A stretch of 64,000 nucleotides of DNA from the NCBI GenBank assembly GCA_009773645.1, contig WSYB01000020.1, forward strand, positions 1-64,000, written 5' to 3'. Both the position numbers and the translations under genes were made by a program. Every line of letters begins with the position of its first letter. The stretch's first letter is position 1. This DNA is from Geobacteraceae bacterium (GTDB taxonomy: Bacteria > Desulfobacterota > Desulfuromonadia > Geobacterales > Geobacteraceae). Positions 23,809 to 53,104 of this stretch are shown piece after piece. Below the pieces are notes generated by a model that was not told where the DNA came from, did not search any database, and worked only from the letters and a program-made list of their open reading frames with translations.

Positions 23809-24429
23809 ATGAAATACTTCAAGTTGACAGTATTGATGCTGTTGGTCATATTAGCATCGATCTTGAATGGTTGTGGCGGCAGCGATTCGCCTTCAGGTTC
23901 ATTGGATGCCTTTGTCGTAAAAAATGATACCAGTAAGCGTGAAGACAACGGCGTGAACCCTATTCCCTCTGAAACTCGCAAGGGGATTCTCAAGCTGTCT
24001 TTGCAGGGACAATTGGCTGAAGGTACCTATATTGGTGGGATCGGGGTAATAGTAAATCTTCCTCCAGGGGTAACGGTCGACACTGTTCCTGGTCAGAACG
24101 ATCCATCGCCACTGGAGGTCGCACCTGGTGTCTTTACAGTAACGCCCGGCTTCATGACAATTTCGGTGGCTTCATACACTGCCGTTACTCCAATAGCTCC
24201 CGCCGGTGTCCATTTTGCGCTTTTGAATGCTGATACGAAATCAATCGGTTTCGGTCTGGGCGAATTTGCCACGCTTAAGTGTAATCTGGCAGCAGACGCT
24301 CCCATTCCCGCAGCATCAGAATTTCAACTCATAGGAATCGAAATCGTCGGCGGAAATGCTCCGGATAAACTTGAAAATCTGATGCCGTTGGTAACCGTCA
24401 CTCCTTCTTCATTTGACGCAGTGAACTGA
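23809..24429 (+). CDS. Lipoprotein, paralogue of the one at 38.4 kb
   Basis: A 206-residue exported lipoprotein. The signal peptide ends in the lipobox LNGCGG (Cys22). The rest is beta-rich, with VIVNLPPGVTV, a central Ala-Gly-Val segment and GEFATLKCN. The same order of motifs (NLPGGVTV and GEFVTVNCD) occurs in the lipoprotein at 38432-38956, so the two are paralogues of about 150 residues. The fold hints at a cohesin-like beta sandwich, which is inference. GGAAAGGAAAGAATTT precedes the ATG. It stands alone and ends with a strong terminator. Confidence 0.8.
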   Translation: MKYFKLTVLMLLVILASILNGCGGSDSPSGSLDAFVVKNDTSKREDNGVNPIPSETRKGILKLSLQGQLAEGTYIGGIGVIVNLPPGVTVDTVPGQNDPSPLEVAPGVFTVTPGFMTISVASYTAVTPIAPAGVHFALLNADTKSIGFGLGEFATLKCNLAADAPIPAASEFQLIGIEIVGGNAPDKLENLMPLVTVTPSSFDAVN

Positions 24430-35045: not shown

Positions 35046-35717
35046 ATAGTTTTCCCTTTCACTCTCCTTTTAAGAAGTAAGTCCGTTCATTAATACACTG
35101 CGAAGCTTGAGGGTGTCAACAATTTATCCCTCACATCCCCATAACCGGCAAAAAGGCGATATTCAGCTTGTTGCCACTCCTCCTTTTCTGTTCGGCGACT
35201 CATTGTTCGACCATCGCATGCATTTTTTCCCTACCTTCCAAGATGCTTCAAAAAAAATATTTCATCAAATTTCCCGCACCCATTCGGCAAAATTCCATTT
35301 AAGTCGCGACAAATCAAGTCGATATTTACTTAAGCTTGGGATTATTGAATGACAACTAAGTTTACATACATGTACTAAAATTGAACAATTTGTGCAGTCT
35401 AAGAGCAAACAACAAATATATGTGTAAACGGGAAAACGCCCGATGTTTCAGCTGAAATTCATCTTGCCGACAAACAGAGAAGCCTCAAAAATAATCGAAT
35501 TGAAAAAGTGTCCCGATCTGCTTTCCACCGAAAAGTGCTATATGCGGTCATCCCTGGCGACAAAAGAGCGTGTAATGTTCCTTATGAACCATACACCTTC
35601 GTTTCGCTCTGTGCGGCGTTTAGAGCACATATTAACAAGGCTCAAATCAGGTACCGATAATGCATCTACGACTGTAATCCCTCAAAATATCGAGGAAAAA
35701 GCATCGGGAGGTGCACC
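35046..35717. other. 672-base intergenic region upstream of the cytochrome cluster
   Basis: An AT-richer stretch that carries leader and control DNA for hisI (leftward) and the secreted-protein operon (rightward). TTTAAGT (35298-35304) and ACTTAAG (35328-35334) form an inverted pair that could be an operator. A plus-strand frame of 93 codons (35443-35724) overlaps the next gene but lacks a ribosome site or family resemblance, so I do not call it. No cyclic-dinucleotide riboswitch core (GGGACGCAAAGC) is visible. Confidence 0.5.
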
Positions 35718-38402
35718 ATGTTAGCCCGAACAGTCAGGATGATCATTTCAGGCAGGCTTCCTCTCATATACGTTGCTTTTATAGCATCGACATCTTTCGC
35801 TGCCGTACCCCCTACCGTAACAACGTTAAACCCGGTTACTGAAGGAATCAGCACCCCCCTTAAGGTGGCTGCCGACTCGACAGGGAATTATTATCTTACC
35901 GACCCGCGGGGGGGCGGCATCCTGAAATACAATCAATCATGTGAACTGACCAAGGTCATAAGGACCGGGAGAAGGCCTCTGGGAATCACCGTAACTCCCC
36001 AGGGGAATATCCTTGTTGGGCAGGGTAATTATGTAAGCATTCTGGACGGCAGCGGCAATGAGATAGGCCGGCTGGGGAGCGGTGCCGGACAGTTCAAACA
36101 GGCCAATGGTATCGCCGTGGACACCACCGGCAATATCTATGTTTCCGACAGTCTGGATCACTGCGTGCAGGTGTTCGGCGCTGACGGAACCTACAAGTTC
36201 CGGTTTGGAAGCCATGGTAACCAGCCGGGACAATTCTCCCTGCCGACCGGCATAACCTATGAAAAGTCTGCCGGCCGCCTGGCGGTTGCTGACACGCTGA
36301 ATGGGCGGATCCAGTTTTTTGATCTTTCGGGCGGCTACCAGAAATCCATAGGTTCGTTCGGCTCCGGTCCCGGCAAGTTTATAGCGCCGCAGGCGGTCGC
36401 TTTCGAATACGACAAGCCCGGCAATTCCGTCTTGACCAGGATGTATGTGGTAGACAGTTTCCAGAGCAATCTCCAGGTAATAAATCCAACGGCTACAGGG
36501 ACATTCCTCGCCTTTATCGGCAGTTACGGACGCGCCCCCGGCCAGCTCACCAACCCTTCCGATGTGCTTTTCGATCGCACAAACGACAAACTGGTCGTGG
36601 TCAACAGCCTTGCCGGCAATCTGGTCCTTTACGGAGTTGACGCGAATCCAACAGTCGGCGGTACGTATCCGACGCTTACCATCGATACACCTCCGACAGT
36701 CTCCAGTGACCCATCCATCGTCTTAAAGGGAACCATGAGCACAGGCTCTGCTATTACAGCAACGGCAAACACAGGGGCGCTCCCCGGAGCGGCAAGCTAT
36801 CCGTCTTCTTCCACATGGAATCTCCCGATAACCAACCTTAAGCCGGGCATAAACCTGATTACCGTTACGGCAACCAACGGCACAGGCGAATATGCAACCC
36901 GTACCATTGCCGTCTGCCTTGTCACCGATTCGCCAACCATTACCATTAACCCGGTTATTCACCTGACCAATATCCCCAGCCAGCCTATTTCCGGAACAAA
37001 AGGGGCGGGAGACGGCATATCCGTCACAACCGACACCAACGCCGTCTCAGGAGCAGTCACGTATCCTACCGCAACTACCTGGGAAACGACAATCTCCGGG
37101 CTGGAGAGCGGAGACAATACCATTATCGCCATTGCTACAAGCAGTTCAGGAGGAGTAAGCGCGGCAACCGCCTCCATCACCCTCGACAACACTCCCCCCA
37201 TCCTTTCCCTTTCGACTATGCCCGATAACAGTTACGCCGCCACTCCGGTGCAAAACATAGCCGGTTTCGTTTCCGACCAGCACTTGGACAAAGTGCTGGT
37301 AAACGACATGCCGGCAACGTTTTCCGGTAACTTGTTCAGCAGTGCAGTAATCCTGGCAGGCGGCGCCAACGATATTAAAGTAGCTGCCTATGACTTGGCC
37401 GGAAACGTCACCGTCATTTCCCGCAAGGTCTTTTTCCGGACCGTTACCCCCCCTCTTGCCGTTATCTCCCCCTCAGACGGGGCCCAGACCAAATCAGGCA
37501 TTCTTACGCTACTCGGGACCGCAGATGCCGGCAATGCCGTTACAGTTAACGGTTTTTCGACGTATATTGATGTCAATGGCTGGAACTCCATCCTGAGCCT
37601 TGCCTCCGGCATTAATACTATCCATGTCGTCTCAAAAGGCCGGTCAGGTGAAGAACTTAGCGTGAAGCGGACCGTTATCGTCACCCCTTCCGCCCCCAAC
37701 CTGTCTATAGACACCCCCTCCCAGGACTTGGCCACCAATGAGGGAAATATGACCTTTAGCGGTACGGTGGATGCCGGAAGCGCCCTGGCTTATTCTGTCA
37801 ACGGCGTTGCTGCCCCATTGAGCCATGACAAAGGTTCATTCAGTTTCACCGTCCCCTTCACTACCGAAAAGCTCTATTCGGTGACTGTTGCGGCCACCGA
37901 CCCGTCCGGCAACATGAGCAATGCAACCCGCAATATTTTCTATGACAAAACCCCGCCAAAGCTGGCGATCAACAAGCCATCCGCCGGCACTCCCAATACC
38001 ATCAGCGGTTCCGCAGAGTCCGGAGCGGTTGCCTCGGCAGAAGACGGAGGGGAAATATTGGGAAGTGCTGTCTCCATTAACGGAGCCTGGAGCTTTGATT
38101 TAACAAACACAGGCTTTAATCCGGCCACCCTCGTGATCCGCGCCAGGGATGCCGCCGGCAACGTCTCAACCCGGATACTTTTCCCGCAAGGGGATATAGA
38201 CGGAAGCGGCGGAGAACCTGACCTCATAGACGCGCTCATGCTCATGCGCATCGCCATGAAATATGACATCCCGACGGCTCAGGATCTGGAGCGTGGCGAT
38301 GTGGCGCCGCTGATAAACGGCAAACCTCAGCCGGACGGAGTGATAAACGGGCATGACGTCATACTGGTGTTACGACGGATAATCGGCCTCGCTACATGGT
38401 AA
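35718..38402 (+). CDS. Secreted NHL beta-propeller/Ig-like protein with dockerin-like C-terminus
   Basis: An 894-residue exported protein (signal peptide to about residue 29, ending SFAAVPP). NHL propeller repeats occupy about 45-310; a typical unit reads ANGIAVDTTGNIYVSD. Several Ig-like beta-sandwich domains follow to about 820 (recurring TITVTA/DAGNAVTVNG segments with DPSGN/DAAGN loops). The last 70 residues (825-894) look like a type I dockerin: loop GDIDGSGGEPDLIDALMLM, then GDVAP...DGVINGHDVILV. Dockerins bind cohesins, so it may dock to a surface partner. GGGAGGTGCACC precedes the ATG. First of four closely spaced genes. Confidence 0.9.
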   Translation: MLARTVRMIISGRLPLIYVAFIASTSFAAVPPTVTTLNPVTEGISTPLKVAADSTGNYYLTDPRGGGILKYNQSCELTKVIRTGRRPLGITVTPQGNILVGQGNYVSILDGSGNEIGRLGSGAGQFKQANGIAVDTTGNIYVSDSLDHCVQVFGADGTYKFRFGSHGNQPGQFSLPTGITYEKSAGRLAVADTLNGRIQFFDLSGGYQKSIGSFGSGPGKFIAPQAVAFEYDKPGNSVLTRMYVVDSFQSNLQVINPTATGTFLAFIGSYGRAPGQLTNPSDVLFDRTNDKLVVVNSLAGNLVLYGVDANPTVGGTYPTLTIDTPPTVSSDPSIVLKGTMSTGSAITATANTGALPGAASYPSSSTWNLPITNLKPGINLITVTATNGTGEYATRTIAVCLVTDSPTITINPVIHLTNIPSQPISGTKGAGDGISVTTDTNAVSGAVTYPTATTWETTISGLESGDNTIIAIATSSSGGVSAATASITLDNTPPILSLSTMPDNSYAATPVQNIAGFVSDQHLDKVLVNDMPATFSGNLFSSAVILAGGANDIKVAAYDLAGNVTVISRKVFFRTVTPPLAVISPSDGAQTKSGILTLLGTADAGNAVTVNGFSTYIDVNGWNSILSLASGINTIHVVSKGRSGEELSVKRTVIVTPSAPNLSIDTPSQDLATNEGNMTFSGTVDAGSALAYSVNGVAAPLSHDKGSFSFTVPFTTEKLYSVTVAATDPSGNMSNATRNIFYDKTPPKLAINKPSAGTPNTISGSAESGAVASAEDGGEILGSAVSINGAWSFDLTNTGFNPATLVIRARDAAGNVSTRILFPQGDIDGSGGEPDLIDALMLMRIAMKYDIPTAQDLERGDVAPLINGKPQPDGVINGHDVILVLRRIIGLATW

Positions 38403-38431
38403 CAATTAAATACAAATCAAGGAGAATCGAG

Positions 38432-38956
38432 ATGGAAAAACCTCATTTATACCGACTCATCGTCTGCATTTTGACGGTGCTCATCGTTGCCGGGTGTGGG
38501 GGGGGGGGCGGTACACAAGGTGTGGCCACCCAGCCTACGACCGCTGTCCTAAAGCTTTATACGCAGAATGTATCTTCTCCTTTAGTCAGTCAATCAATCA
38601 CCGGGGTGACCCTAAAGATCAATCTCCCTGGCGGGGTTACGGTAAAGACAGACGCAGGTGGAGCGGTAAGCCCGGGAGTTATCGTCGTTGCCGGTGTCGC
38701 TGTCGGCAAGGCAAGTACATTCGCACAAATTTACACCTCCGCCACAGCCACAGCCCCTGCAACGCTGAGCTTTGCCGTGGTAAGCACGGATGCCGGCGGG
38801 TTCGAAGCAGGAGAATTCGTTACAGTAAACTGCGATATTACTCCCGGCGCCTTCCCGAAGAATGCAGATTTCACCTTAAGCGACGAAACCGTCAGCTTGT
38901 TGAATTCTCCGCCACTTGACACGATGAAAATAACGTTAACTTCGGAGATAAAATGA
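38432..38956 (+). CDS. Cohesin-like lipoprotein, paralogue of the one at 23.8 kb
   Basis: A 174-residue lipoprotein with lipobox VAGCGGG. The mature part is beta-rich: VLKLYTQ, ITGVTLKINLPGGVTV, ATLSFAVVST and GEFVTVNCDI. The series resembles the strands of a cohesin fold, whose last strands typically read G-x-(hydrophobic)-(Thr)-(hydrophobic). The identity is inference; no family match can be run here. It is placed 29 bases after a protein ending in a dockerin-like module. AAGGAGAATCGAG precedes the start at 38432, chosen over an upstream in-frame ATG because of the signal peptide and this ribosome site. Confidence 0.75.
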   Translation: MEKPHLYRLIVCILTVLIVAGCGGGGGTQGVATQPTTAVLKLYTQNVSSPLVSQSITGVTLKINLPGGVTVKTDAGGAVSPGVIVVAGVAVGKASTFAQIYTSATATAPATLSFAVVSTDAGGFEAGEFVTVNCDITPGAFPKNADFTLSDETVSLLNSPPLDTMKITLTSEIK

Positions 38957-39008
38957 AAGACCGGGTGCAGATCATCCAGTGTACCCCCCTGTTTCCCAGG
39001 AGCATCCC

Positions 39009-42000
39009 ATGAAAACCTTGGTCGTCAGAACCGTTGTCGTTATCGGATTCTGTTTGTTGCTCCCTGTCGCAGCAACCGCCATCAAGCCTCCACACGACAT
39101 AAGCAACGGCTATTCCTGCTCCAACTGTCATGCCGTTCATATGAGCTTAGGCGCCACCGGTTATACCAATGCATGCCTCAACTGCCACCGGCCGGGGGTC
39201 CCGCGGGGGGAGGGTAAGCCGTTTACCCTGGCGGACGCCGCCACCCCCTTTGCACTATTTACCGGGGCTTCAGCCGGCAGACTTTACCAGACCTCCCATG
39301 CCTGGAGCGGCAGCCAAACGGTGCCGGCGGCCGGGGCGCAACCGCCGCTCGACCCGAACCTGGTGAACACCAAAACGGTTACCGGTCTGGCCTGTCCCCG
39401 CTGCCACGACATCCACACCGCCAAGGACAAATCGCTCCTGCGGACCAAAAACGACCGGGACCAGATGTGCCTTGACTGTCACCGAGCCAGGAACAGCACC
39501 GATCACGCAAATGGGACCCACCCGGTCAACGTCAATTACACCGGCGCAGCCTCCCTGGTGCGGGTAAAGCCCGGGGAATTCAACAATCCGCCCGTGAACG
39601 GCAACCCGGCCAACCCCACGTCGGCCGCGAAACTCATCAACGGCACCATCCTCTGCACCACCTGCCATGGGGTCCACTACAGCGATTCCAACAGCGCCAC
39701 CTTTGACAACGCCACCAGCTATTACTCCCTGACCCGCTCGGCGGGGGCGCTGCTGCGGACCGACCTGCGGGGCAGCAGTGCGGACTCCCTCAACATCTGC
39801 ACCAACTGTCACGTGAAGAAAAACCACAACGCCAAGGGGCAGAACATCCAGTGCGCCGACTGCCACGGCGGTCATGTGGATTACATGCCCGACGCCGCCA
39901 ACGACCAGGAGCGCATTCCCAACGTCTATCTGGTACGGCGCTACATGAACCGTTCCACGGCCGGCGGACCGGCAACGAAGACGGTGTTTCTGCAGCGGAC
40001 CTCGGCGGCCCGCACATACGCGGATGGTGGACGCGGGGTCTGCGAAGCCTGCCATGCGGTGCCCGCAGCCATTGCCGCCCATATGACCGCGGACAACAGC
40101 GCCGCTTACTGCGGCAACTGCCACAAACATAACAACCAAAACGGTGCCTTCTCCGCCACCGGCGGGGCCTGCGATGCCTGCCACGGCCATGACGAGGCGA
40201 GCAGCAATCCTCTTGCCACCGGTCTGCATGGACCCCACATCAACAGGACCGCCAACCCGGCCCTGGGCAAGGCGCTGGGCTGCGTCGAATGCCACGCCAA
40301 GACGGTGAGCGGCAACTATGTGATCAGCAACCCGGCCATCCACGCCAACGGCTTTCTGGACTACTCGGGCGCAAAAGCCGGGCAAACCGCCGCCTGCGCC
40401 AACTTCTACTGCCACTCGGACGGCAAGGGGACCTTTGCCAATCCGCCCGCCTGGACCGCAGGTGGCAGCCTTGCATGCAACGGCTGTCACGGTACGGGGA
40501 ACGGCATCGGCTATCCCGATTACGCCAGTACAGGGGCGGGACTCCTCCGGGCCAACAGTCACGTAAAACATGTGAAGAGCGGCGCCGCCGCCTGTGACGC
40601 CTGCCATACCTACACCACCGTAAGCGGCGGCGCCATAATGAACGGCTCCACCCTCCACGTGAACAAAACCATCGATGTCACCTTCAATCCGGCCAAGGCG
40701 ACGGCGGTCTGGACGCCGGCAACCAAGACCTGCGCCACCATCTCCTGCCATGCCGGCGGCACCGCCCAGTGGGGAGGAACTCTCTCCTGCGGCGACTGTC
40801 ACGGTCTTGATGCCGGGAGCGGTAAGCCCATGGCCACCGGCCGCCATTCCGCCCATGTGAACAACGGGGCGATCCTCGGAACCAACTTCGTATGTGACGA
40901 CTGCCACGCCAAGACTGTAACGGGCGTCACCATCACCACCCCCGCCAACCACGCCAACAGCTTTGTCGACTACTCCGGTCTGAAGGCGGGGCGCAATAAA
41001 TCTTGTGCCAACGTCTACTGCCACTCGGACGGCAAGGGGACCTTTGCCAATCCGCCGGCCTGGAACTCCGGAGCTTTCCTCTCCTGCAAAGGCTGCCACG
41101 GCACGGGGAACAGCGCCGGCTATCCTGACTACGCCAATGCCGGCGCGGGACTCGCCACAGCCAACAGCCATAGTGCCCATACCGCGGCCGGCGCCGCTTC
41201 CTGCGACACCTGCCATACCGACACCACCGTAAGCGGCATCGCCATCAAGACCGGTTCCACCCTGCACATAAACCAGAGTATCGATATCGCCTTCAATCCC
41301 GCCAAGGCGGGCGCCGGCGCAGCCTGGACAGCGGGGACCAAGAGCTGTACCAATATCTACTGCCACAGTTCCGCCCCCATGGTGTGGGGGGCAACTCTTG
41401 CCGGCGACTGCACCAGTTGTCACGGCAATGACGCGCAGAGCAGCAAACCCATGAGCACCGGCAAGCACAGCAGGCACATGAACAACTACACCACCCTGGG
41501 GACAGGGAACGACTTCGGCTGCGTGGCGTGCCACGCCGGCACCGTCGCCGACAACCGCACCATCAACGGTCAGGGGCGGCATGTGAACGGCCTCAAGAAC
41601 TACTCTGGCGTGAACGCAGGCTCCATTGCCGTGGTCGGCTCGGGAAGCTGCGCCACCGTTTATTGCCACAGCACCGGCATGCAGAACAACCAGTTCTGGA
41701 ACATGACCGCCGCCACCTGGAATTCCGCCCGAACCCTTGACTGCACCGGCTGTCACGGCGGTCCGGCCCTTCCCGACGGCACCTTTGCCGCTTTCACTTC
41801 TGTCGCCGGCGAGCCCAACTACGCCAACGGCGGGGCCGGCACCCCGACCGCCAACAGCCATGCGAAACACGTGGCCGGCGCCGGGCTTGCCGACTCCACC
41901 GGCTGCGCCCGCTGCCACCGAAACACCGTGGATATGGGGATCTCCGGCAAGCTGCGCGATTACTCCAGCGCCCATCTTAACAGAAGCCGCGACGTAACCT

Positions 42001-45000
42001 TCTCCGCCGCCGTCCAGGGGAGATACAGCGCCGCAACCCAGCAGTGCGTGAGCATCTACTGCCACTCCAACGGCTCCCCCTTCGACAACCTCACCACCGT
42101 CTATAAATCCCCCGCCTGGGGGGATGCGGCGCTCACCTGCGCCTCCTGCCATGCCGACCCGAACAATGCCGATGCCTTGAGCGGCAGGCACGGCAAGCAT
42201 ACCGTCAGCGCCATCTATCTCTCCAGCTGCGACCGCTGCCATAACAACACCGTCGATGCCAGCGGGAAAATCATCGACAAGGCCCGGCATGCCAACAAAG
42301 CCAAGGACATCGCCTTCAGCAACGGCGGCAGTTACAACAACGCCACCAAGGAGTGCGCCACGTACTGCCACAGCGACGCCAGGGGCGGCACCCCCGCCGT
42401 TGCCGTGAAATGGTCCGATACCGCCACTTCCATGACGTGCTATTCCTGTCATAAGGGTAAGACGACCGACAGCACCACAGCCAACTGTACGGAAATTCAG
42501 GGAGTCTGGAGCAGCGCCAAGGGCTACTGCACCCCCGACCTGACCATGACGTCCAACGGCCATCACCGCCTGGTGGGGCCGCAGTGGGTCAGAAAATACC
42601 CCTGCTACTATTGTCATAACGCCACCATGGATAATACGGGGAATATCAAGGATAAGACAAAACACCTGAACAATACCAATGATATCGAGATGGCAACCAA
42701 ATGGGAAATCGGGAACCGGCCGAAGCCGAGCTACGATCCCGATACCAAGGTCTGCGACAATGTTTACTGCCACAGCGACGGCACCACCGACCCGGAAGAC
42801 GTCCGCCCCTTTGCCTGGACCGCTCCCAAGACCGAGTGCAACTCCTGCCACGGCCATCCGACCGGCTCCTGCTCCAATGCCGGCTGTCATGACGGGGAAG
42901 TGCACGTCGGTGATCCCACCGGCAAACTCTGGACGCTACCGGCCAAATTCGGCAATCATTCGGCCTACACCTGGCCCGTCGGTCAGGAATGGAAGGCTTC
43001 CCTCCCCATGTTCCCCAACCAGGGGGCCGGGACGGCGCGGGCCAACTCCCATGCCCGCCATGCGGAAACCGATTTCACCTGCGACCAGTGCCATGCTAAG
43101 ACCATCAGGAGCGGGGCCTGCACCACCTGCCATGTTAACGGCATTCCTGCCGGCGGCATGGGTGAAGTGGCCCACATCGACGCCGCGTTCCATGTGAACA
43201 AAAACAAGGATGTGGATTTCAGGGACGGCGGCGACTACGACCCCATCAATAGAACCTGCTCCGGCACCGCCTGCCATACCGGCGGCGTGGATCCGGTGTG
43301 GGGGGGCTCGGTCGGCAGCGCCGTGACCTGCCTCTCCTGCCACGGCATTACCGGCCCGGATGTGGATGATTACGACGCCTTCAACGGAACGCAGGGGAAA
43401 ATCAACCTGACGCAATGGGAGACGACAGGCCACGGCAGGTATTCATCGGCAGCCTATACCGGTTACTACCCCAAATCAGGGAACCCGGCCGCCAGCTTCC
43501 CCGGCAACCCCTGCTGGTACTGCCATGATAACAGCGTGATCCACAAGGACGCCGCCAATCCTTATCGATTGCGGATGCACATCCAGTATGAACGGCGCTT
43601 CGAAAAAGAGTGCGTATACTGCCACATGGAGAGAACCAATGCCGAGTGCATTGCCTGCCACGTAGGGCAGACCGAATCCCTCTCGCCGCAGGCGACCGCA
43701 AGCGGCATCGTATTCAGATTCAAAAACGGCTCCTCGGTAACCAGATATCCGACCCATACGGACGTGGTCAACTGCATAAATGGCGCAGGCTGCCATGATT
43801 CGGACAACGGCACGTTCTCCAACAGAAGTACGCACAAAGGGCATAATGCCAATGCCGGCGTCTGGACACCGGAACAGAAAGCGGACGTGAAGAACCAGTA
43901 CCTGATGATGGGGGTCTGCCTGCAGTGCCATGACGACGACAGCAGCAATCAGTGCACCAGTTGTCATATCGCACCGGCAGATAATCCGTTGAAATACTCG
44001 CTCGGCTACGACCCCGGCACCGGCTTTATCAAGCCGCGCAAGGCGAGGGCTTCGGCCGGCCATTTCGGCTACAAGCACTACCGCGCCTTTAAAAATTCAG
44101 GAGGATGGGCGAAAGACGTCGACGGCAACTACCTGGGTACCTGGAAAGGGGGCAAATTCTGCTGGGACTGCCACGACCCACACGGCGACAGCAATATCTA
44201 CATGATCCAGAAGAAGGTGGCGACCACCACAGACGGCAAGTTCGGAATGCCGAAGACCCAGGCCGTAGTCACCTTTACCGACAAGGAAAGCGGTTCCGGT
44301 TATGTGAAGAAGGTTGCGCCATTCGACGGCATCTGCAATGTCTGCCACTCGCCGGAAAGCAAGCATTTCACCAGCAATTCCGGTGACGGTCACAACATGA
44401 GCCGGCGCTGCACGATCTGCCATGAGCACCGCTTTGCCGACAGTCACGCCAACAAACAGAGCTGTGACAGCTGCCACGACAGTGAAAAGCCGATTCCAAA
44501 GCATACGGCTTTTGGCCTGCCGCGTGACTGCACCAAGTGCCACGCCGGCACCGTCGGCAAACGGATGGACATCATGGGGCAGATGAAGGCTAACTCCCAC
44601 CATGTCCAGGGGGTGGAGGTGAACAACAAACACTGCTACAAATGCCACTGGGAGGCAACCCCGGACGGGTTGATCGACAACCAGTTCCACACCGGCTACA
44701 ACTATAAGAATTACACGTCCGTAAAGAATGACGTGGTTGACCTGGTGATATACGGACCGGGCACGCGGCCGACGGTTTACCGGAATACCTCTTCTGCCGA
44801 CGGCAGGGCAACCGTCACCACGTTCCTTGCCAGCAACATGGGTACCGCCGAGGAGAGGAACGAGGTCAGCAACGTCTCCAACCACTGTCTTTCCTGCCAC
44901 AGCGACCAGAACAATGACACCGTGCCGTTCGACGACTGCAAGACTCCCCGCCAGTACGCCTGGGACATCCAGAGCATAGATGCCCGATACTCCCAGACCG

Positions 45001-46679
45001 ACACCATCACCTGGGGCAAATATCCCGGCACGGCAAATGCCGCCAAGAAGAATATCACCAAGTCCTTCTCGGCCCACGGCAACGGCGTTGCCAACGGGGG
45101 AGGATGGGATCCGGCAACCGGCCTCGATGGAAACATCCCGAATACACGGGGGGGTGTAGCCAACAAAAACGTGCAGTGCTTCGACTGCCACAATTCCCAC
45201 GGCTCCAAGGTAGTTGGGATTACCTCCAGCTACGTCACCTTCAACGGCACCTACAACGGTGCAAACCTGAAGGAGACCAAGAAGGACATGGGTGGTTACA
45301 CCGCCGACTACAAAGCCTCATCCAATACCTCGGGGGTCAATCCTTACGGCGCCGGTGCCGGCCAGTGCTTCGACTGCCACAATACCGCCATCGCCGGTAC
45401 GGCCGTGCCGACCGGCAAGACCCCGTGGGGATATGACTCAACCTTTGGCGCAACAGCGCCGATCATGGGATACAAGGACACCCCGCGCTTCGGCCAGGGG
45501 ATCAAGGCGTCCACCGCCCGCTTTACCGAGCGGGACAGCAGGAAGACGATTCTAGGCGGCCACCTGAAGGCTTCCGAACCGGCAGGCTCGCTGCCAAACC
45601 TGGCCAAGGATACCGGAACCGCCAGCAGCGGTTCACTCACCACTCTTGACGACGGCGGAAAAAACTGGATTGCAGACAAATGGAAAAACCTCTACGTCCT
45701 TTTAGGGAGCGGCAGCAACAGCGGACAGCTCCGAAAAATTACCGGCAACACGGCCACCACCCTGACGGTGGAACCGTTTGCCGCACCCGTGGCCGCGGGC
45801 GACTCCTACAAGATCGTGCCGTACTCGGCGACCGTCAACGGCTTGTGCACCCCGTGCCACGACCCGCACGGCGTCAGCCCGACGCTGGGGAGCAATCAGG
45901 CCTATGCAGTGCCGCTCCTCAAGGGAACATGGATGACCTCGCCGTACAAGGAAGATGCGCCGCCGCCAAATCCATACGGTACCGAGGCGACGGACAAGTC
46001 ATGGTCGCAATACACCAACGGTTGGGGGCAATATCCCAACGGGTATAAATTCGGAATGTATCGATCGACGGGGAACGTGCAGCCGGTCACTAAGCACACT
46101 CTCGACCGCAATACCTTCGGCACTGTGGATGGCACACCAACCGGCGCCCCGAAGAAATTTAGCGAGAACGATACGAAGTTTGCCGGGTTGTGCCTGAACT
46201 GCCACAAAAAGGAGACTCTCACCGACGGCATCAACAGGAACAACGGCGCAGCCGGTTTCAAAACCCTCGACCGCATCCATGAATCGGTCAAGGGGTGGGG
46301 TGTGAATAACGAGCACTCTTTTACCTGCTCAAAATGCCACCAGCCGCACAATTCCGGTCTGCCTAGGCTGATGCAGACTGATTGTCTGGATTACAGGCAC
46401 CGCGGAGGCAGTGTTTCCACCGGGACAGCCTGGGCGGTCGATAAGCAACGATACGGCCAGACAAGGTTCGGTTATACGAAGGGCAACGCTGGCAACGAGC
46501 ACCGCGGCTATCCCATCGGGAGCATTCTCGGCGTGCGGGACGCCAGCAATTTCACGGTACCCGAGGCGACCACAGCCTGTCATGTGGCCAGATTCAATCC
46601 GACGTATAATTCAAATCCTGCGACGATGATTAATTGGCCGGACGGCAACCTGTGGAACAACGTGACGCCATGGCCGTAA
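39009..46679 (+). CDS. Giant multiheme c-type cytochrome (57 candidate heme sites)
   Basis: A 2556-residue exported cytochrome (signal peptide MKTLVVRTVVVIGFCLLLPV, then AATA). I count 46 CxxCH sites plus nine CxxxxCH, one CxxxCH and one CxxxxxCH, that is up to 57 covalent hemes. The CxxxxCH-then-CxxCH pairing is characteristic of Geobacter cytochromes. A tandem-duplicated module lies at 40.26-41.48 kb. A non-heme stretch near residues 2195-2275 has a repeated TTLTV strand pattern. It probably conducts electrons outside the cell; the acceptor is unknown. CCAGGAGCATCCC precedes the ATG. It sits 52 bases after the cohesin-like lipoprotein and 65 before the SBBP protein. Confidence 0.95.
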   Translation: MKTLVVRTVVVIGFCLLLPVAATAIKPPHDISNGYSCSNCHAVHMSLGATGYTNACLNCHRPGVPRGEGKPFTLADAATPFALFTGASAGRLYQTSHAWSGSQTVPAAGAQPPLDPNLVNTKTVTGLACPRCHDIHTAKDKSLLRTKNDRDQMCLDCHRARNSTDHANGTHPVNVNYTGAASLVRVKPGEFNNPPVNGNPANPTSAAKLINGTILCTTCHGVHYSDSNSATFDNATSYYSLTRSAGALLRTDLRGSSADSLNICTNCHVKKNHNAKGQNIQCADCHGGHVDYMPDAANDQERIPNVYLVRRYMNRSTAGGPATKTVFLQRTSAARTYADGGRGVCEACHAVPAAIAAHMTADNSAAYCGNCHKHNNQNGAFSATGGACDACHGHDEASSNPLATGLHGPHINRTANPALGKALGCVECHAKTVSGNYVISNPAIHANGFLDYSGAKAGQTAACANFYCHSDGKGTFANPPAWTAGGSLACNGCHGTGNGIGYPDYASTGAGLLRANSHVKHVKSGAAACDACHTYTTVSGGAIMNGSTLHVNKTIDVTFNPAKATAVWTPATKTCATISCHAGGTAQWGGTLSCGDCHGLDAGSGKPMATGRHSAHVNNGAILGTNFVCDDCHAKTVTGVTITTPANHANSFVDYSGLKAGRNKSCANVYCHSDGKGTFANPPAWNSGAFLSCKGCHGTGNSAGYPDYANAGAGLATANSHSAHTAAGAASCDTCHTDTTVSGIAIKTGSTLHINQSIDIAFNPAKAGAGAAWTAGTKSCTNIYCHSSAPMVWGATLAGDCTSCHGNDAQSSKPMSTGKHSRHMNNYTTLGTGNDFGCVACHAGTVADNRTINGQGRHVNGLKNYSGVNAGSIAVVGSGSCATVYCHSTGMQNNQFWNMTAATWNSARTLDCTGCHGGPALPDGTFAAFTSVAGEPNYANGGAGTPTANSHAKHVAGAGLADSTGCARCHRNTVDMGISGKLRDYSSAHLNRSRDVTFSAAVQGRYSAATQQCVSIYCHSNGSPFDNLTTVYKSPAWGDAALTCASCHADPNNADALSGRHGKHTVSAIYLSSCDRCHNNTVDASGKIIDKARHANKAKDIAFSNGGSYNNATKECATYCHSDARGGTPAVAVKWSDTATSMTCYSCHKGKTTDSTTANCTEIQGVWSSAKGYCTPDLTMTSNGHHRLVGPQWVRKYPCYYCHNATMDNTGNIKDKTKHLNNTNDIEMATKWEIGNRPKPSYDPDTKVCDNVYCHSDGTTDPEDVRPFAWTAPKTECNSCHGHPTGSCSNAGCHDGEVHVGDPTGKLWTLPAKFGNHSAYTWPVGQEWKASLPMFPNQGAGTARANSHARHAETDFTCDQCHAKTIRSGACTTCHVNGIPAGGMGEVAHIDAAFHVNKNKDVDFRDGGDYDPINRTCSGTACHTGGVDPVWGGSVGSAVTCLSCHGITGPDVDDYDAFNGTQGKINLTQWETTGHGRYSSAAYTGYYPKSGNPAASFPGNPCWYCHDNSVIHKDAANPYRLRMHIQYERRFEKECVYCHMERTNAECIACHVGQTESLSPQATASGIVFRFKNGSSVTRYPTHTDVVNCINGAGCHDSDNGTFSNRSTHKGHNANAGVWTPEQKADVKNQYLMMGVCLQCHDDDSSNQCTSCHIAPADNPLKYSLGYDPGTGFIKPRKARASAGHFGYKHYRAFKNSGGWAKDVDGNYLGTWKGGKFCWDCHDPHGDSNIYMIQKKVATTTDGKFGMPKTQAVVTFTDKESGSGYVKKVAPFDGICNVCHSPESKHFTSNSGDGHNMSRRCTICHEHRFADSHANKQSCDSCHDSEKPIPKHTAFGLPRDCTKCHAGTVGKRMDIMGQMKANSHHVQGVEVNNKHCYKCHWEATPDGLIDNQFHTGYNYKNYTSVKNDVVDLVIYGPGTRPTVYRNTSSADGRATVTTFLASNMGTAEERNEVSNVSNHCLSCHSDQNNDTVPFDDCKTPRQYAWDIQSIDARYSQTDTITWGKYPGTANAAKKNITKSFSAHGNGVANGGGWDPATGLDGNIPNTRGGVANKNVQCFDCHNSHGSKVVGITSSYVTFNGTYNGANLKETKKDMGGYTADYKASSNTSGVNPYGAGAGQCFDCHNTAIAGTAVPTGKTPWGYDSTFGATAPIMGYKDTPRFGQGIKASTARFTERDSRKTILGGHLKASEPAGSLPNLAKDTGTASSGSLTTLDDGGKNWIADKWKNLYVLLGSGSNSGQLRKITGNTATTLTVEPFAAPVAAGDSYKIVPYSATVNGLCTPCHDPHGVSPTLGSNQAYAVPLLKGTWMTSPYKEDAPPPNPYGTEATDKSWSQYTNGWGQYPNGYKFGMYRSTGNVQPVTKHTLDRNTFGTVDGTPTGAPKKFSENDTKFAGLCLNCHKKETLTDGINRNNGAAGFKTLDRIHESVKGWGVNNEHSFTCSKCHQPHNSGLPRLMQTDCLDYRHRGGSVSTGTAWAVDKQRYGQTRFGYTKGNAGNEHRGYPIGSILGVRDASNFTVPEATTACHVARFNPTYNSNPATMINWPDGNLWNNVTPWP
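40260..41477 (+). repeat. Tandem duplication of a 609-base cytochrome module
   Basis: Two successive copies of a 203-codon unit inside the cytochrome gene. The stretch ACTGCCACTCGGACGGCAAG and the following CCTTTGCCAATCCGCC recur 609 bases apart (40431 against 41040). Each copy holds CxxCH, CxxxxCH, CxxCH, CxxCH and further sites in the same order. A third, more diverged copy follows to about 42.1 kb. Confidence 0.75.
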
Positions 46680-46744
46680 GCAGTACCTCTTTCGGAAGAG
46701 GCGTAAAACAAATGAGTTTTTCGTGCAATAGCGGAGGCAATTCG

Positions 46745-49700
46745 ATGAGCCAATATTGTAAATTTTATCTGAGGAGACTGACGGGCGCCAGCCGGTGCAG
46801 CCATCTCCCTCGGTCGCAATGCTCCCTGTTCCTGTTGACACTGATTACCATTCTCGCATGTGCGGTTGCGGCGTTTGCCAAAGGGGGCGACCCTGTCGGC
46901 TCGTTCCCGTCGGTTGACGCCCGGGCGGGGCTGCAGTATTCCAAGGCCATGGCAGTCGATGCGGCAGGCAACATCATTGTCGTCGGCTACACCGGTACCA
47001 ATGGCAATGATTACCAGGTGGTCAAATTCAAGGCGGACGGTTCAGGAACGGCGTGGGCACCGGTCTCCTTTGGAGGCTCCGGTGCTGATGTGGCAACGGC
47101 GGTGGCGGTCGATTCCGCCGACAACATTATTGTGACCGGCTACACATGGAATGGCGCAGATTACGATATTCACACCATCAAGTACAGCGGCGCAGACGGT
47201 TCGGTACTGTGGGAGCACACCTTCGACGACGGTGCAGCAAACGGCAACGATTACGCCACGGCCATCGCCGTTGACGACGCCAATGACATATACGTAGCCG
47301 GCTATTCCGCCAACGGAACAAAGCAAGATGATTTCCTGGTTATCAAATACCTTCCGAGCGGCCCTACGGCCAATGCACCAGCATGGCAGGAACTGTACGA
47401 CGACGTGGCCTACCCCAATAACAACAACCGTATCCTGGCCATCGCCGCCGGCGTGGGCGGCATTGCCGTGACCGGCTACTCGTCCAAGGGAGGGGCGGAT
47501 TTCGACATTCTTACCCGCAAATACGGCTTTGACAAATCGCTTGTCAGGGAGTGGCGCTATTCTTCACCAGGGAGCCGCGACGACCGAGGGATAGCCGTGA
47601 AGACGGATTCCGCAGGGAATGTGATAGTCACCGGCTTTCTCACGAACGCTTCGAATAATTCGGACATCTGCACCGCTAAATACGATCCTGCCAGCGATAC
47701 GCCGGTCTGGGAAAAGTTTTACGACGGCAACGGCAATGATGAACCGAAGGGTTTGTGGGTCGACAGCGCGGGAAACGTGTATGTTACCGGCTACACTTCG
47801 ACCCTTGCCGGCAACCAGGATATTTATACCGTCCGATACAGCAGCACCCCCGGCCCTCTGGTCTGGGAAGCCATTTTTGACTCCGGAAACGGCTCTACCG
47901 ACATTCCCGCCGCCATTGTGGTGGACGATGCGGCGGATGGCGGGGTATTCGTCACCGGCTATACCACAATCTCAAACAATGAAGATTTCCTTACCCTCAA
48001 ATACAAAAAGGACAATGGAGTCCTCCTCTGGGAAAAGAGCTGGAATGGCAGCGACAACAACAACGACCGGCCCGTTGGTATCGGCCTGTCGTCCCGGAAT
48101 GTTTGCGTGGCCGGCTGGTCCGACGCCGATGCCACCGGCTACGACTTCCAGGCAATGAAGTACGACTTCGGGGCGCTCAACGCCCCCTCCAACCTGACGG
48201 CCAGCGCCGCTTCCAATACCTCCATAACCCTTACCTGGGCCGACAACTCCACAAACGAAGACAAATTCGTCATCCAGAGGAAACTGGGTGAAAACGGGAT
48301 TTTTGCCGACATAACGACAGTCCCTCCGCTGCTCTCCCCCGACACCACCACTTATACCGACACCGGACTCACCAGCAACAGCTATTATTATTACCGGATC
48401 CGTGCCTACAACGCCACCAACAACGATTCCTACAACAGCAATGAAGCGCATGCCCTGACCAAGGTGGTGAGCTACGATGCTCCATCATGGAATTATCTGT
48501 ACAACAGCGCAGATAACCGGGAAGACATTGCTACGGCCATTACGGTCGGCTCCGATAACCATCCGGTAGTGACCGGCTATAGCGACCTGACGGAAGAAGG
48601 AGTTGAAGGAGCGTATTCGTTTGACTACATGACCATCAAACTTGATCTCTCCGACAAATCGATCAAATGGAAGGCGCGCTACGACAGCGGTGACGGCGGC
48701 ACCGACCAAGCCGCCGGCGTGGTGCTGGACAGCAACAGCGACGTGCTGGTCACCGGTACGGCCTACCTCTCCGGTGGGACGGACAAGAGCGATGACCTCT
48801 ATACCATAAAATTCCAGACCTCCACCCATACGGATCCGAACACTAATCCGCCATTCATGTGGGATCACCAGTATGGTACGCAAGCTGGCATCGACATCGC
48901 CACTACGATCACGATGGCCAAGGACGGTTCCAATAACAGCGTTGTCATCGGCTATGGAAGAAACGCCTCGAACAACGACGATACCTTCATCATCAAATAC
49001 AATCAGAACGGCACCCGACCATGGGCGCCCATGGTCTACGACAGCGGCAGCCACGACCATCCCACCGCGGTTGTCTTCGACGCTGCCGGCAACATATTCG
49101 TAACCGGTTACAGTTATGCAACCACAGCGGATCCCGCCGGCAGTTACGACTGGTTCACCGCAAAGTACAACGGCGCCACCGGTGCGCTTATCTGGTCGGA
49201 CACCTTTAACAGCGGCTACGGCGACGAGAAACCGCTCTCCCTGGATGTGGACACCGCGGGTAACGCCTACGTAACCGGCTATGCCACGAATGCCCAAGGG
49301 GAGTACGTTTTCTATACAGTCAAGTATGACGGCGCGACGGTTCCGGCAGGGAATCGGAGAATCTGGGAAAAATCCTTCAATTACCCCGGCTTCGATGCCG
49401 AGGCCGCGGTAGTCAAGGTAGACCCGATCGACGGCGCGGTGGTGGTCGCGGGCACGGCCTATGTGAGCGCAACCGACAGCGATTTTCACCTGATCAGGTA
49501 CAACCCGGCTGACGGCACGTTGACGGCAGGCGGCGGCAAACCGTTCTGGGAGATAAACTTCGACCGGCCGGCGACTTACGACTATGTCACAGCCATGACG
49601 ATGGACTCCTCCGGCTACATTTATGTAACCGGCAATACCCGTGGCGGCCCCGATACCGATCCTGCCTTTGACGGCACCTCCGACATCATGTCCCTCATTT

Positions 49701-52700
49701 ACGACTATGAGGGGACCTTCCTGGGGGCGATGACCTATGACGGGACCGGCAGGAAAGACGAAACGAAGGCGATCACCGTCAACTACCAGGGAGAAGCGTT
49801 TGTGGCCGGTTATTCAAGGAACGCGACCAATGCGGACTATGTGGTGCTGAAGCAGACAAACGGCTACCTCCTGGTTCCCGCCCCTTTCACGGGGAGTTCC
49901 CAGGCAGATTACAGCAAGGTGGACCTGAGCTGGCAACATAACAACGCCAGTGCGACGTTCATCATCGAACGGACCCCCGGGCCGGCAACTCCCGTCAGCA
50001 CCTGGACCGTGATAGCCACGCCCGGTGCCGGCGCCACGAGCCACACGGACACTTTACTGACCGCCGATACCAACTATTGTTACAGGATCAATGCCATTTT
50101 AAGCAGCCTTCCTTCCCGGAAGACCCCTCCAACGTGCGTCACCACCAGACTCCCGAAACCGACCCTGACCACCCTGACGGTGGACTCCACCAGTCAGATC
50201 ACGGTGAACTGGGATCAGGTAACGGGCAACACCGGATACAAGGTTGAGCGTATAATAGGCGCGGGGGCATGGGCCGATTTAGCCACCAAAGCAGCCGGAG
50301 AGAATTCCCATGTAGATCAAGGCCTTACCCCCGGCACCACCTACTCCTACCGGGTCAGCACCAACAGTGCCGCCGGATATTCACTGCCAGGCAACGAGCC
50401 GAGCGCCATAACCAAACCGGTGGCTCCGACATTGAACGCGCCAACCAGCATCACCAATACCCAGATGGTTCTGGGGTGGAACGCCGTCACCGGTGCGGCC
50501 ACCTATACGCTGCAATACAAGCTGTCGGGCGGCGTCTACGCCAACTTCCCGGCCTGCACCAACATAGCCGGCACCACGTGCACCGTTACCGGCCTTACGG
50601 CACCGAATGCATACAACTTCCAGGTCAAGGCCGCCAATGCCGGTGGAGATTCCGCCTGGAGTAATGAACAGAGCGGCACGGCGGCGCTGGCCGTGCCGAC
50701 ACTTACCACCCCCATCGCAGTTGCTACCATCACCAGTACCCAGATGTATGTGGCCTGGACCAACCCTGTTGTCAGCGGGGCGAATGTAACCTCCTATACC
50801 CTGGAATACAAGGAAGGGGTCGGCGGCTCGTATGTCGCTTCCGGCTGTCCGGCCAACACCAACCTTTTTTGTACGGTTACCGGATTGACGCCAAACAGGA
50901 CCTATTATTTTCATGTCAGGGCCAACAACGCCTCCGGAAGTTCAAACTGGAGCACAGAAGTAAATGCAAAGACGCTTCTGCCCACGCCGACTTTGAACAG
51001 CGTTACCGGTGGCGCGTTGAAGGTCGATCTGGTCTGGACCGGCGTGGCCGAAGCTACGGGGTATACCGTTCAGCAATCGGCCTGCACCGACAGCACCAGT
51101 CCAACTACCTGCAGAGGCGGAGCTGCGTATGCAGCATGGGGCAACATAGCAACGGGCGTTACATCACCATACTCCGCAACCGGCCTGGCAGCGGGAACCA
51201 ATTACAAGTACCAGATAATCGCCACTGTTGCCGGCAATTCATCCGCCGCCAGCAACGTCCTGCATGCCTGGACGAATCTCGCCGCCCCGACCCTTACCGT
51301 TACACCGGCGAGCTCCACGGCGCTCACTCCCGGCTGGGACGCGCAACCGGGTGAAACCAACTATACCGTGGAAGTCAGCACCACCGGAATCGGTGGTACG
51401 TATACCGCGATCCCGGCCGCGACCGGGCTTGCGACAAATGTCATTACCTATCCACATACCGGCCTCACCCTGAATACCCAATACTGCTATCAGGTAAAGG
51501 CATACAGCACCGAAGCGACTCCTCCGCCCGCTGTCTACAGCACCCCGCAGTGCAAGACCACGCCACCGGTTGAACCGACTCTAAATGAACCAACCGTTGC
51601 ATCTACCACCCAGATAAACCTCTCCTGGAGTCAGGTTGCCAGCAATACCGGCTACGAGATTGAACGGTGCATAACAACCGACAACAATCAACCCCTAACC
51701 CATCCTCTGGGCGCCTGTATGAACCTGGCACCGACAGTTGCCCAGGATACCACCTCCTTCAACAACACGGGATTGACCGCCGGCAATACCTACAGGTACC
51801 GGGTGCGGGCCTTGTATAACGCTTCGGCCGACTATACCGCGTGGAGCAACGCCTACTGGGTCACTACCACCCCACCGGCGCCGACCATGACCGCCCCCAC
51901 GGCTGCTTCCACAACCACAACCCAGTTAACCCCCACGTGGAATGATGTCAACGGAGATAACGGCTATAAGCTGTACTGGAAAGCACGATCAGGAGCAGAC
52001 TGCACCGCCGGGACCTGGAACGGCCCCATAACCCAGGCGATTAATGTAATAACCTATGACCATGCCGGCCGCACCCCCGGAACCTTTTACTGTTATTATA
52101 TCACGGCAAACGGACCTTCCGGACCTCCAGTAACACCGGATTCCGCCGCCAGCAATGTAGTGTCGCAGACGACGAAACCTTCTGCGCCGGCCCAGCCAAC
52201 CTTAAGCAGCATTACCGCTTCGAGTATCACCGTGACGTGGTCGCCGAACGTCACCGGCAACATTGGTTACAATATCGAGCGCAAGACCGGCGCTGGCGGC
52301 ACTTGGGGTTCCGTTGGCACGGTGGGCACTGATGTGACAACGTTAACCAACAACACCGGCCTTAGCCCCGGCACGCTGTATTATTACCGGGTCAGTGCCA
52401 ACTCCGCCGGCGGCTATTCAGCTACCAGCGCCGAACAGTCGGCCACCACCACTCCGGCAATTCCCTCAATTACCGCAACTGCCGTATCCGATGACGAGAT
52501 CGACGTATGCTGGCCGTTGGTCTACGGCGCCACCAGTTACAAGGTGGACCGCAAAACGGAAAGCGGGGGGACATACGGCCAGATTGCCAATCCGAGCGAG
52601 AGCTACAGCACATCGTACTGCGGCGAACCCTACCCTACCGTCAGCTGTCCGACAGCTACACCGGTAGTTTACTGTTACCAGGACACGGGGCTGACGGAGA

Positions 52701-53104
52701 ATACGACATATTACTACCACCTGCATTCGGCTAACGGCACCGACTCCCCGGAAAGCAACGAAAAAAGCGCGACGACCCTGAGTATCCCCAATCAGAATCT
52801 GACTGCCACCGCCGTCAACTCCTTTAAAGTCAAACTTGACTGGACCCCCATCGTCTGCGTGCCCAATCCGTGCGACAACCCGGACAGTTTCGAAATCGAA
52901 CGACAGGTACGAGACGGAAACTGGGTGAGCCTCAAGACCGTGGATGGCGGCACCTTGACCTTTACCGACTCCATCAGCATCGACCCGAACAAACAGTACA
53001 GTTACCGGGTACGGTCGGTCAAGGGAGCGGATAAATCACCGTACAGCAATACGGCAACGGTCTCCGCAGACGTTTACCAGACGGGGGACGGCACGTGTAA
53101 TTAG
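46745..53104 (+). CDS. Secreted SBBP beta-propeller/fibronectin type III giant protein
   Basis: A 2119-residue exported protein. A polar stretch of about 20 residues precedes the hydrophobic signal core (LFLLTLITILACAVAAFA). Two SBBP (beta-propeller) blocks follow: about 55-475 (units such as AVDAAGNIIVVGYTG) and 576-1040. Fibronectin-III-like domain 1 sits between them, and about eleven more follow to the end, with SITLTWADNSTN and TGYKVER motifs. It has no heme motif. Such proteins usually form extended adhesive or structural stalks. The start at 46745 is set by GCGGAGGCAATTCG; earlier ATGs in frame lack that spacing. It is the last gene of the secreted-protein operon. Confidence 0.88.
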   Translation: MSQYCKFYLRRLTGASRCSHLPRSQCSLFLLTLITILACAVAAFAKGGDPVGSFPSVDARAGLQYSKAMAVDAAGNIIVVGYTGTNGNDYQVVKFKADGSGTAWAPVSFGGSGADVATAVAVDSADNIIVTGYTWNGADYDIHTIKYSGADGSVLWEHTFDDGAANGNDYATAIAVDDANDIYVAGYSANGTKQDDFLVIKYLPSGPTANAPAWQELYDDVAYPNNNNRILAIAAGVGGIAVTGYSSKGGADFDILTRKYGFDKSLVREWRYSSPGSRDDRGIAVKTDSAGNVIVTGFLTNASNNSDICTAKYDPASDTPVWEKFYDGNGNDEPKGLWVDSAGNVYVTGYTSTLAGNQDIYTVRYSSTPGPLVWEAIFDSGNGSTDIPAAIVVDDAADGGVFVTGYTTISNNEDFLTLKYKKDNGVLLWEKSWNGSDNNNDRPVGIGLSSRNVCVAGWSDADATGYDFQAMKYDFGALNAPSNLTASAASNTSITLTWADNSTNEDKFVIQRKLGENGIFADITTVPPLLSPDTTTYTDTGLTSNSYYYYRIRAYNATNNDSYNSNEAHALTKVVSYDAPSWNYLYNSADNREDIATAITVGSDNHPVVTGYSDLTEEGVEGAYSFDYMTIKLDLSDKSIKWKARYDSGDGGTDQAAGVVLDSNSDVLVTGTAYLSGGTDKSDDLYTIKFQTSTHTDPNTNPPFMWDHQYGTQAGIDIATTITMAKDGSNNSVVIGYGRNASNNDDTFIIKYNQNGTRPWAPMVYDSGSHDHPTAVVFDAAGNIFVTGYSYATTADPAGSYDWFTAKYNGATGALIWSDTFNSGYGDEKPLSLDVDTAGNAYVTGYATNAQGEYVFYTVKYDGATVPAGNRRIWEKSFNYPGFDAEAAVVKVDPIDGAVVVAGTAYVSATDSDFHLIRYNPADGTLTAGGGKPFWEINFDRPATYDYVTAMTMDSSGYIYVTGNTRGGPDTDPAFDGTSDIMSLIYDYEGTFLGAMTYDGTGRKDETKAITVNYQGEAFVAGYSRNATNADYVVLKQTNGYLLVPAPFTGSSQADYSKVDLSWQHNNASATFIIERTPGPATPVSTWTVIATPGAGATSHTDTLLTADTNYCYRINAILSSLPSRKTPPTCVTTRLPKPTLTTLTVDSTSQITVNWDQVTGNTGYKVERIIGAGAWADLATKAAGENSHVDQGLTPGTTYSYRVSTNSAAGYSLPGNEPSAITKPVAPTLNAPTSITNTQMVLGWNAVTGAATYTLQYKLSGGVYANFPACTNIAGTTCTVTGLTAPNAYNFQVKAANAGGDSAWSNEQSGTAALAVPTLTTPIAVATITSTQMYVAWTNPVVSGANVTSYTLEYKEGVGGSYVASGCPANTNLFCTVTGLTPNRTYYFHVRANNASGSSNWSTEVNAKTLLPTPTLNSVTGGALKVDLVWTGVAEATGYTVQQSACTDSTSPTTCRGGAAYAAWGNIATGVTSPYSATGLAAGTNYKYQIIATVAGNSSAASNVLHAWTNLAAPTLTVTPASSTALTPGWDAQPGETNYTVEVSTTGIGGTYTAIPAATGLATNVITYPHTGLTLNTQYCYQVKAYSTEATPPPAVYSTPQCKTTPPVEPTLNEPTVASTTQINLSWSQVASNTGYEIERCITTDNNQPLTHPLGACMNLAPTVAQDTTSFNNTGLTAGNTYRYRVRALYNASADYTAWSNAYWVTTTPPAPTMTAPTAASTTTTQLTPTWNDVNGDNGYKLYWKARSGADCTAGTWNGPITQAINVITYDHAGRTPGTFYCYYITANGPSGPPVTPDSAASNVVSQTTKPSAPAQPTLSSITASSITVTWSPNVTGNIGYNIERKTGAGGTWGSVGTVGTDVTTLTNNTGLSPGTLYYYRVSANSAGGYSATSAEQSATTTPAIPSITATAVSDDEIDVCWPLVYGATSYKVDRKTESGGTYGQIANPSESYSTSYCGEPYPTVSCPTATPVVYCYQDTGLTENTTYYYHLHSANGTDSPESNEKSATTLSIPNQNLTATAVNSFKVKLDWTPIVCVPNPCDNPDSFEIERQVRDGNWVSLKTVDGGTLTFTDSISIDPNKQYSYRVRSVKGADKSPYSNTATVSADVYQTGDGTCN

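Follow-up and report, generated by a model that had tools for sequence, protein, structure and literature searches.

A conserved dockerin–cohesin gene pair adjoins giant multiheme cytochrome genes in Geobacter and its relatives

In Geobacter and its relatives, a secreted NHL-propeller/Ig-like protein ending in a dockerin, a lipoprotein predicted to fold as a cohesin and a giant multiheme c-type cytochrome are encoded by a conserved three-gene unit, usually preceded by porin-like and multiheme lipoprotein genes. Our comparative and structure-prediction data suggest that the first two proteins form a non-cellulosomal lock at the outer membrane. This bears on the open question of how outer-membrane conduits hold giant extracellular cytochromes, for which a conserved protein lock adjoining conduit genes offers a concrete, testable mechanism. 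Since cohesin–dockerin pairs are swappable by design, the lock is also a tool. A soil study interpreted dockerin transcripts of Geobacter as indicating that cellulose was being broken down (PMC6199725); dockerin genes in metal reducers should now be read differently.

Results

We analysed a 64,000-nucleotide stretch of DNA from a Geobacteraceae bacterium (GCA_009773645.1, contig WSYB01000020.1, positions 1 to 64,000), referred to as the window. ORF calling recovered, as a preliminary description had proposed, four consecutive plus-strand genes encoding an NHL/Ig-dockerin protein, a lipoprotein, a giant cytochrome and a giant SBBP/FN3 protein, in that order. The features discussed below are:

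23809..24429, + strand: second, orphan cohesin-like lipoprotein gene (profile hits, E 9e-29 and E 2.3e-32)
35632..35661, + strand: promoter-like site TTAACA-18-GATAAT upstream of gene 1 (consensus scan, 10/12 matches)
35718..38402, + strand: gene 1, secreted NHL propeller/Ig-like protein with C-terminal dockerin, 894 aa (Pfam)
38190..38390, + strand: dockerin of gene 1, two loop–helix repeats, residues 825–894 (AF2, Foldseek, VIA-align)
38432..38956, + strand: gene 2, lipoprotein with lipobox LIVAGC and one predicted cohesin-fold domain, 174 aa (AF2, VIA-align)
39009..46679, + strand: gene 3, giant multiheme c-type cytochrome, 2,556 aa from ATG (motif count, TIGR01904, Cytochrome_C7)
46745..53104 (best start), + strand: gene 4, giant SBBP/FN3 protein (Pfam SBBP, fn3)

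The lipoprotein was started at the ATG at 38432, which has a good ribosome-binding site, the cytochrome at the ATG at 39009 (its ORF being open from a GTG at 38979) and the SBBP/FN3 protein at 46745 (open from a TTG at 46634). With these starts the intergenic gaps are 29, 52 and 65 bases, matching the spacing of 29–65 bases given before. The promoter-like site precedes gene 1 by 56 bases; over the whole region, the consensus scan yielded promoters and terminators in numbers not above those in shuffled sequence. Pfam matches agree with the earlier naming of a propeller/Ig protein and an SBBP/FN3 giant, gene 1 containing NHL repeats together with Ig-like Glucodextran_B, Big_13 and Big_6 domains, and gene 4 containing 6 SBBP and 8 FN3 stretches. 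The cytochrome matched Cytochrome_C7 and GSu_C4xC__C2xCH, a Geobacter CxxxxCH/CxxCH domain, and carries 46 CxxCH, 1 Cx3CH and 9 Cx4CH heme motifs. These make 56, or the 57 candidate hemes counted previously if one Cx5CH is included. No Pfam domain was found in the lipoprotein when the window protein was scanned.

A dockerin occupies residues 825–894 of the NHL/Ig protein. The window copy gave no single-sequence match in the Pfam search, PF00404 included; its family is readily recognised, with 43 homologous C-termini aligning as loop–helix repeats around an invariant Asp, Pro and Asp, 20 of the 43 matching PF00404 individually (best 5e-11), and the family alignment retrieving cellulosomal dockerins first from the PDB (5m2o, 1.8e-4). 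Modelled alone with AF2 (pLDDT 93), the module returned dockerins exclusively at Foldseek ranks 1–26, with E-values that are weak because the module is small. VIA-align, a second-look structural alignment, gave best Z scores of 9.8 and 9.5, the latter for 2ccl (rmsd 1.6, 62 residues). About 9 residues are inserted into the second loop (VAPLINGKPQP, then DG). Of 232 family hits, 227 have the dockerin no more than 30 residues away from the stop codon.

The lipoprotein is predicted to fold as a cohesin, a nine-stranded jelly-roll. Its AF2 model, again computed alone, has a pLDDT of 87.6, reaching at least 90 for 121 of the 174 residues, and cohesins fill VIA-align ranks 1–49 (Z 9.2–6.2, 109–130 residues), the first non-cohesin fold appearing at rank 50 (Z 6.0). 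Foldseek returned cohesins intermixed with other beta-sandwiches, none below E 0.001. At the sequence level, PF00963 was matched by 2 of 50 lipoprotein family members at E<=0.1 (best 0.0019), PDB searches with the lipoprotein alone or with its alignment gave chance matches only, and hhalign of that alignment against two Pfam cohesins of the same genome gave no match. Because sequence profiles and hhalign find no link, the cohesin assignment rests on fold and context, and since profiles hardly reach PF00963, annotation would miss this lipoprotein as a cohesin. Within the order, this family occurs in multiple copies. Both the dockerin-like double loop and the lipobox followed by beta-strands, which had led the preliminary description to propose a dockerin and a cohesin-like receptor, are real features conserved across their families, and the structure predictions point to the same two identities.

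Several comparisons tie the two modules to each other. Of the 137 non-redundant cohesin genes flanked by sufficient DNA, 98 have a dockerin-ending gene immediately upstream on the same strand, an adjacency expected by chance in about 1 in a thousand cases (a rough estimate, from around five dockerins per 4 Mb genome). The dockerin gene is downstream in 3 and on the opposite strand in none (0/137), and 39 of the 137 have no adjacent dockerin. Gaps between paired genes are mostly −8 to +60 bases, and a lipobox pattern search was positive for 101 of the 121 paired cohesin ORFs. Presence and absence also coincide: across 156 genomes of the class, 57 encode both modules, 94 neither, 1 a cohesin only and 4 a dockerin only (Fisher p 1.5e-36, kinship ignored). 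In multi-copy genomes, the mirror-tree correlation of the partners was r 0.366 vs 0.083 +/- 0.05 for within-genome partner shuffles (5,000 shuffles inside each genome, maximum r 0.272), and mirror-tree distances picked the correct partner in 49 of 75 cases vs 18 expected.

These comparisons of gene sequences and positions show that dockerin and cohesin genes evolve as pairs, marking their products as putative binding partners; pairwise co-variation would also fit two genes simply travelling together. We infer that the dockerin binds the cohesin in cis. The cohesin–dockerin pair proposed beside the cytochrome is supported by predicted module folds, kept adjacency, shared presence and absence, and co-variation, all of which agree.

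To follow the link with cytochromes, we collected relatives of the NHL/Ig-dockerin protein through similarity to that protein, regardless of cytochromes; at E<=1e-50, they are present in 60 of 141 genomes of the order. A giant cytochrome (at least 10 CxxCH) lies within 3 kb downstream in 33 of the 36 NHL/Ig-dockerin loci with enough downstream DNA, in three families. When all fetched loci are counted, some of them obtained through cytochrome similarity, the NHL/Ig-dockerin, cohesin lipoprotein and giant cytochrome genes follow one another directly at 24 distinct loci. The 23 genomes concerned represent three families and include Geobacter sp. OR-1 (45 CxxCH), Geobacter sp. L1geo and Geomonas sp. 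Red32. The conserved unit is therefore dockerin–cohesin–cytochrome. Most dockerin–cohesin pairs do not adjoin cytochromes.

Two arrangements of the NHL/Ig-dockerin gene were distinguished. Type A loci read porin-like protein, pentaheme lipoprotein, octa- to decaheme lipoprotein, NHL/Ig-dockerin, cohesin lipoprotein, giant cytochrome. Type B loci read histidine-kinase-sized gene, NtrC-type regulator, NHL/Ig-dockerin, often a tetraheme protein, giant cytochrome, without a cohesin; the upstream regulators are those of the loci read, and the kinase-like gene was judged by size. The dockerins of the two types consistently differ (GDVAPLxNGxPxPDG in type A vs GDIGPLLNGKPNPNG in type B). A neighbouring cohesin gene is lacking in about half of the NHL/Ig-dockerin clusters, most of them of type B, although the dockerin is kept there. 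Type B loci with their own dockerin signature are L362-L364, L366-L368, L371-L377, L379, L388, L392, L397 and L398.

Genes for the porin-like protein and the pentaheme and octaheme lipoproteins, which stand upstream in most type A loci and are absent from the window, form a putative outer-membrane electron conduit in most relatives. The barrel of the type A porin-like protein is weakly supported (PF13505 0.025), and no periplasmic cytochrome was identified in these loci. The genome of the window carries porin and pentaheme genes on another contig (C10), ahead of a multiheme gene; they share 59% and 67% identity, respectively, with their counterparts in relative G020. That plug, socket and cytochrome are kept together suggests that the lock helps to build outer-surface electron wiring.

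The complete four-gene order was found in the window only, and conservation of the four genes as one unit was accordingly rejected. Homologues and gene maps indicate that the window cytochrome is a fusion, joining an N-terminal part of the dockerin/cohesin-linked type to a part of the SBBP/FN3-linked type. The same fusion occurs in two homologues: in G001 (L151) it stands beside an SBBP/FN3 gene with no dockerin or cohesin adjoining, and in G005 (L164) it is found with an NHL gene without a dockerin. At about 15 loci that lack both dockerin and cohesin, an SBBP/FN3 giant comes after a cytochrome of 1,480–1,750 residues. By these maps, the SBBP/FN3 gene is the partner of the second half of the cytochrome and lies outside the dockerin–cohesin unit. 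The preliminary description had expected relatives to share the whole gene order: this holds for dockerin, cohesin and cytochrome, at the 24 loci in 23 genomes, and fails for the SBBP/FN3 gene, which forms a separate pair with a cytochrome. The proposed role of the SBBP/FN3 protein as the stalk of the assembly finds no support, as its gene belongs to the pair of the other cytochrome type. The same genome encodes more such pairs on contigs C60, C67 and C73 (L167, L152 and L169), with cytochromes up to about 80% identical to that of the window, and some relatives have three or more.

Cohesins and dockerins also occur outside these clusters. The orphan cohesin-like lipoprotein gene at 23809..24429 has no dockerin within 2 kb, and its product is a possible free receptor for the orphan dockerins of its own genome. 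Contig C57 of that genome has a secretin-like ORF with a Pfam cohesin domain at its end (25589-25897, L001), and about 8 kb away an ORF begins with a cohesin (34004-34303, L002) and has a calcium-loop-like motif, DLNGDGVRD. Genus g13 has well-conserved cohesin lipoproteins with no dockerin within 1.5 kb (L192, L193, L195, L197, L198, L201). Gammaproteobacterial assemblies contain dockerins of the family without a recognisable family cohesin nearby (L084, L087, L089, L096, L101, L102, L104). Elsewhere (L069:10290-12920), a redox enzyme itself bears the plug, in a protein that has a di-heme cytochrome c peroxidase (MauG-type) domain and ends in the dockerin.

Discussion

Our preferred explanation, to which we assign a probability of roughly 0.62, is that the propeller/Ig protein is kept at the outer membrane, next to an electron conduit, by a non-cellulosomal dockerin–cohesin lock. 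The cohesin lipoprotein would be a lipid-anchored receptor in the outer membrane, and the dockerin of the NHL/Ig protein would be the plug that binds it, in a calcium-dependent manner as in other dockerins. Docked in this way, the propeller and the Ig stalk would stay on the cell surface, alongside the giant cytochrome that the next gene encodes. We infer this surface location for both the NHL/Ig protein and the lipoprotein, and the propeller protein may then position or stabilise the cytochrome for extracellular electron transfer. More tentatively, and at clearly less than even odds, we consider that the order of Geobacter builds part of its extracellular electron machinery with dockerin–cohesin locks, in which a lipid-anchored cohesin at the outer-membrane conduit would hold the propeller/Ig protein and the latter would hold or orient the giant cytochrome, giving a cellulosome-like modular surface assembly for electrons.

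The main rival to the lock is a general surface-anchoring cassette that is merely co-transcribed with the cytochrome, the NHL/Ig protein being an adhesin or a mineral- or cell-binding protein that makes no contact with it. The same pair carries payloads not linked to cytochromes, including cadherin-like, Vps10, RCC1, laminin-G and Lcl_C proteins, and most pairs have no cytochrome nearby, as such a cassette would predict. The NHL/Ig payload, however, adjoins giant cytochromes in 33 of 36 similarity-fetched loci across three families, and we regard the cassette as unlikely, if still a serious competitor. Far greater doubt attaches to the proposal that the dockerin serves as a tag for secretion or sorting, received by a cohesin that ends the type II secretion secretin, with the lipoprotein as a secondary holder. 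A secretin-like ORF with a Pfam cohesin is encoded in the same genome (L001), and many relatives have Pfam-cohesin ORFs of 786-887 aa, among them dockerin genomes without a lipoprotein cohesin; such cohesins, however, are also present in genomes without a family dockerin (G010, G003, G046, G088, G103), and it is the lipoprotein gene that the dockerin gene adjoins. Because the presence of the secretin cohesin does not track the dockerin, we retain it as a weak rival only.

We consider least probable a pairing in the periplasm, with the lipoprotein on the inner leaflet and the complex serving a structural or regulatory role. This would be compatible with the lipobox, which carries no information on surface exposure, but the payloads are large and adhesin-like, the largest exceeding 2,400 aa, and putative outer-membrane conduit genes lie alongside. 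The outer-membrane lock remains the reading that we favour.

Comparison with known systems

The Geobacter porin–cytochrome conduits ExtABCD, ExtEFG and OmcBC have been described with no mention of an NHL, dockerin or cohesin gene (PMC6148476). The type A upstream order of porin, pentaheme and larger multiheme lipoprotein resembles ExtBCD as judged by gene order (PMC6148476); unlike the Ext and Omc clusters, the window is without conduit genes, which lie on another contig. Non-cellulosomal cohesins and dockerins (PMC9012536, PMC10553843) and Geobacter conduits (PMC6148476) are each already documented, and a search of the open literature, outside which lies the non-cellulosomal survey of Peer et al. 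2009, found no paper joining the two.

Both folds are like those of the cellulosomal type I pairs of Clostridium thermocellum (PDB 1ohz, 2ccl), and, as in cellulosomes, a two-repeat dockerin stands at the C-terminus of a secreted protein while the cohesin belongs to a cell-anchored one. In contrast to cellulosomes, 223 of 225 ORFs here have one cohesin per protein, hence no scaffoldin, and no glycoside hydrolase catalytic domain was found among the 17 dockerin proteins scanned; a cellulosome was rejected on both counts. The second dockerin loop, with its insert of about 9 residues, and the lipid anchor in a Gram-negative bacterium also set the pair apart from its cellulosomal counterparts.

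Non-cellulosomal cohesins and dockerins of ANME archaea and syntrophic sulfate reducers have been discussed as adhesins or scaffoldins (PMC9012536, PMC10553843). Like the pair described here, those of ANME consortia occur outside cellulose degradation and in makers of electron conduits (PMC9012536, PMC10553843), and an archaeal cohesin, 2xdh of Archaeoglobus fulgidus, is among the top structural matches of the lipoprotein model. Proteins of the ANME and sulfate-reducer systems carry up to five cohesins, with no described fixed gene unit with a conduit (PMC9012536, PMC10553843), whereas in Geobacter and its relatives single-cohesin lipoproteins and dockerins form pairs at the level of individual genes.
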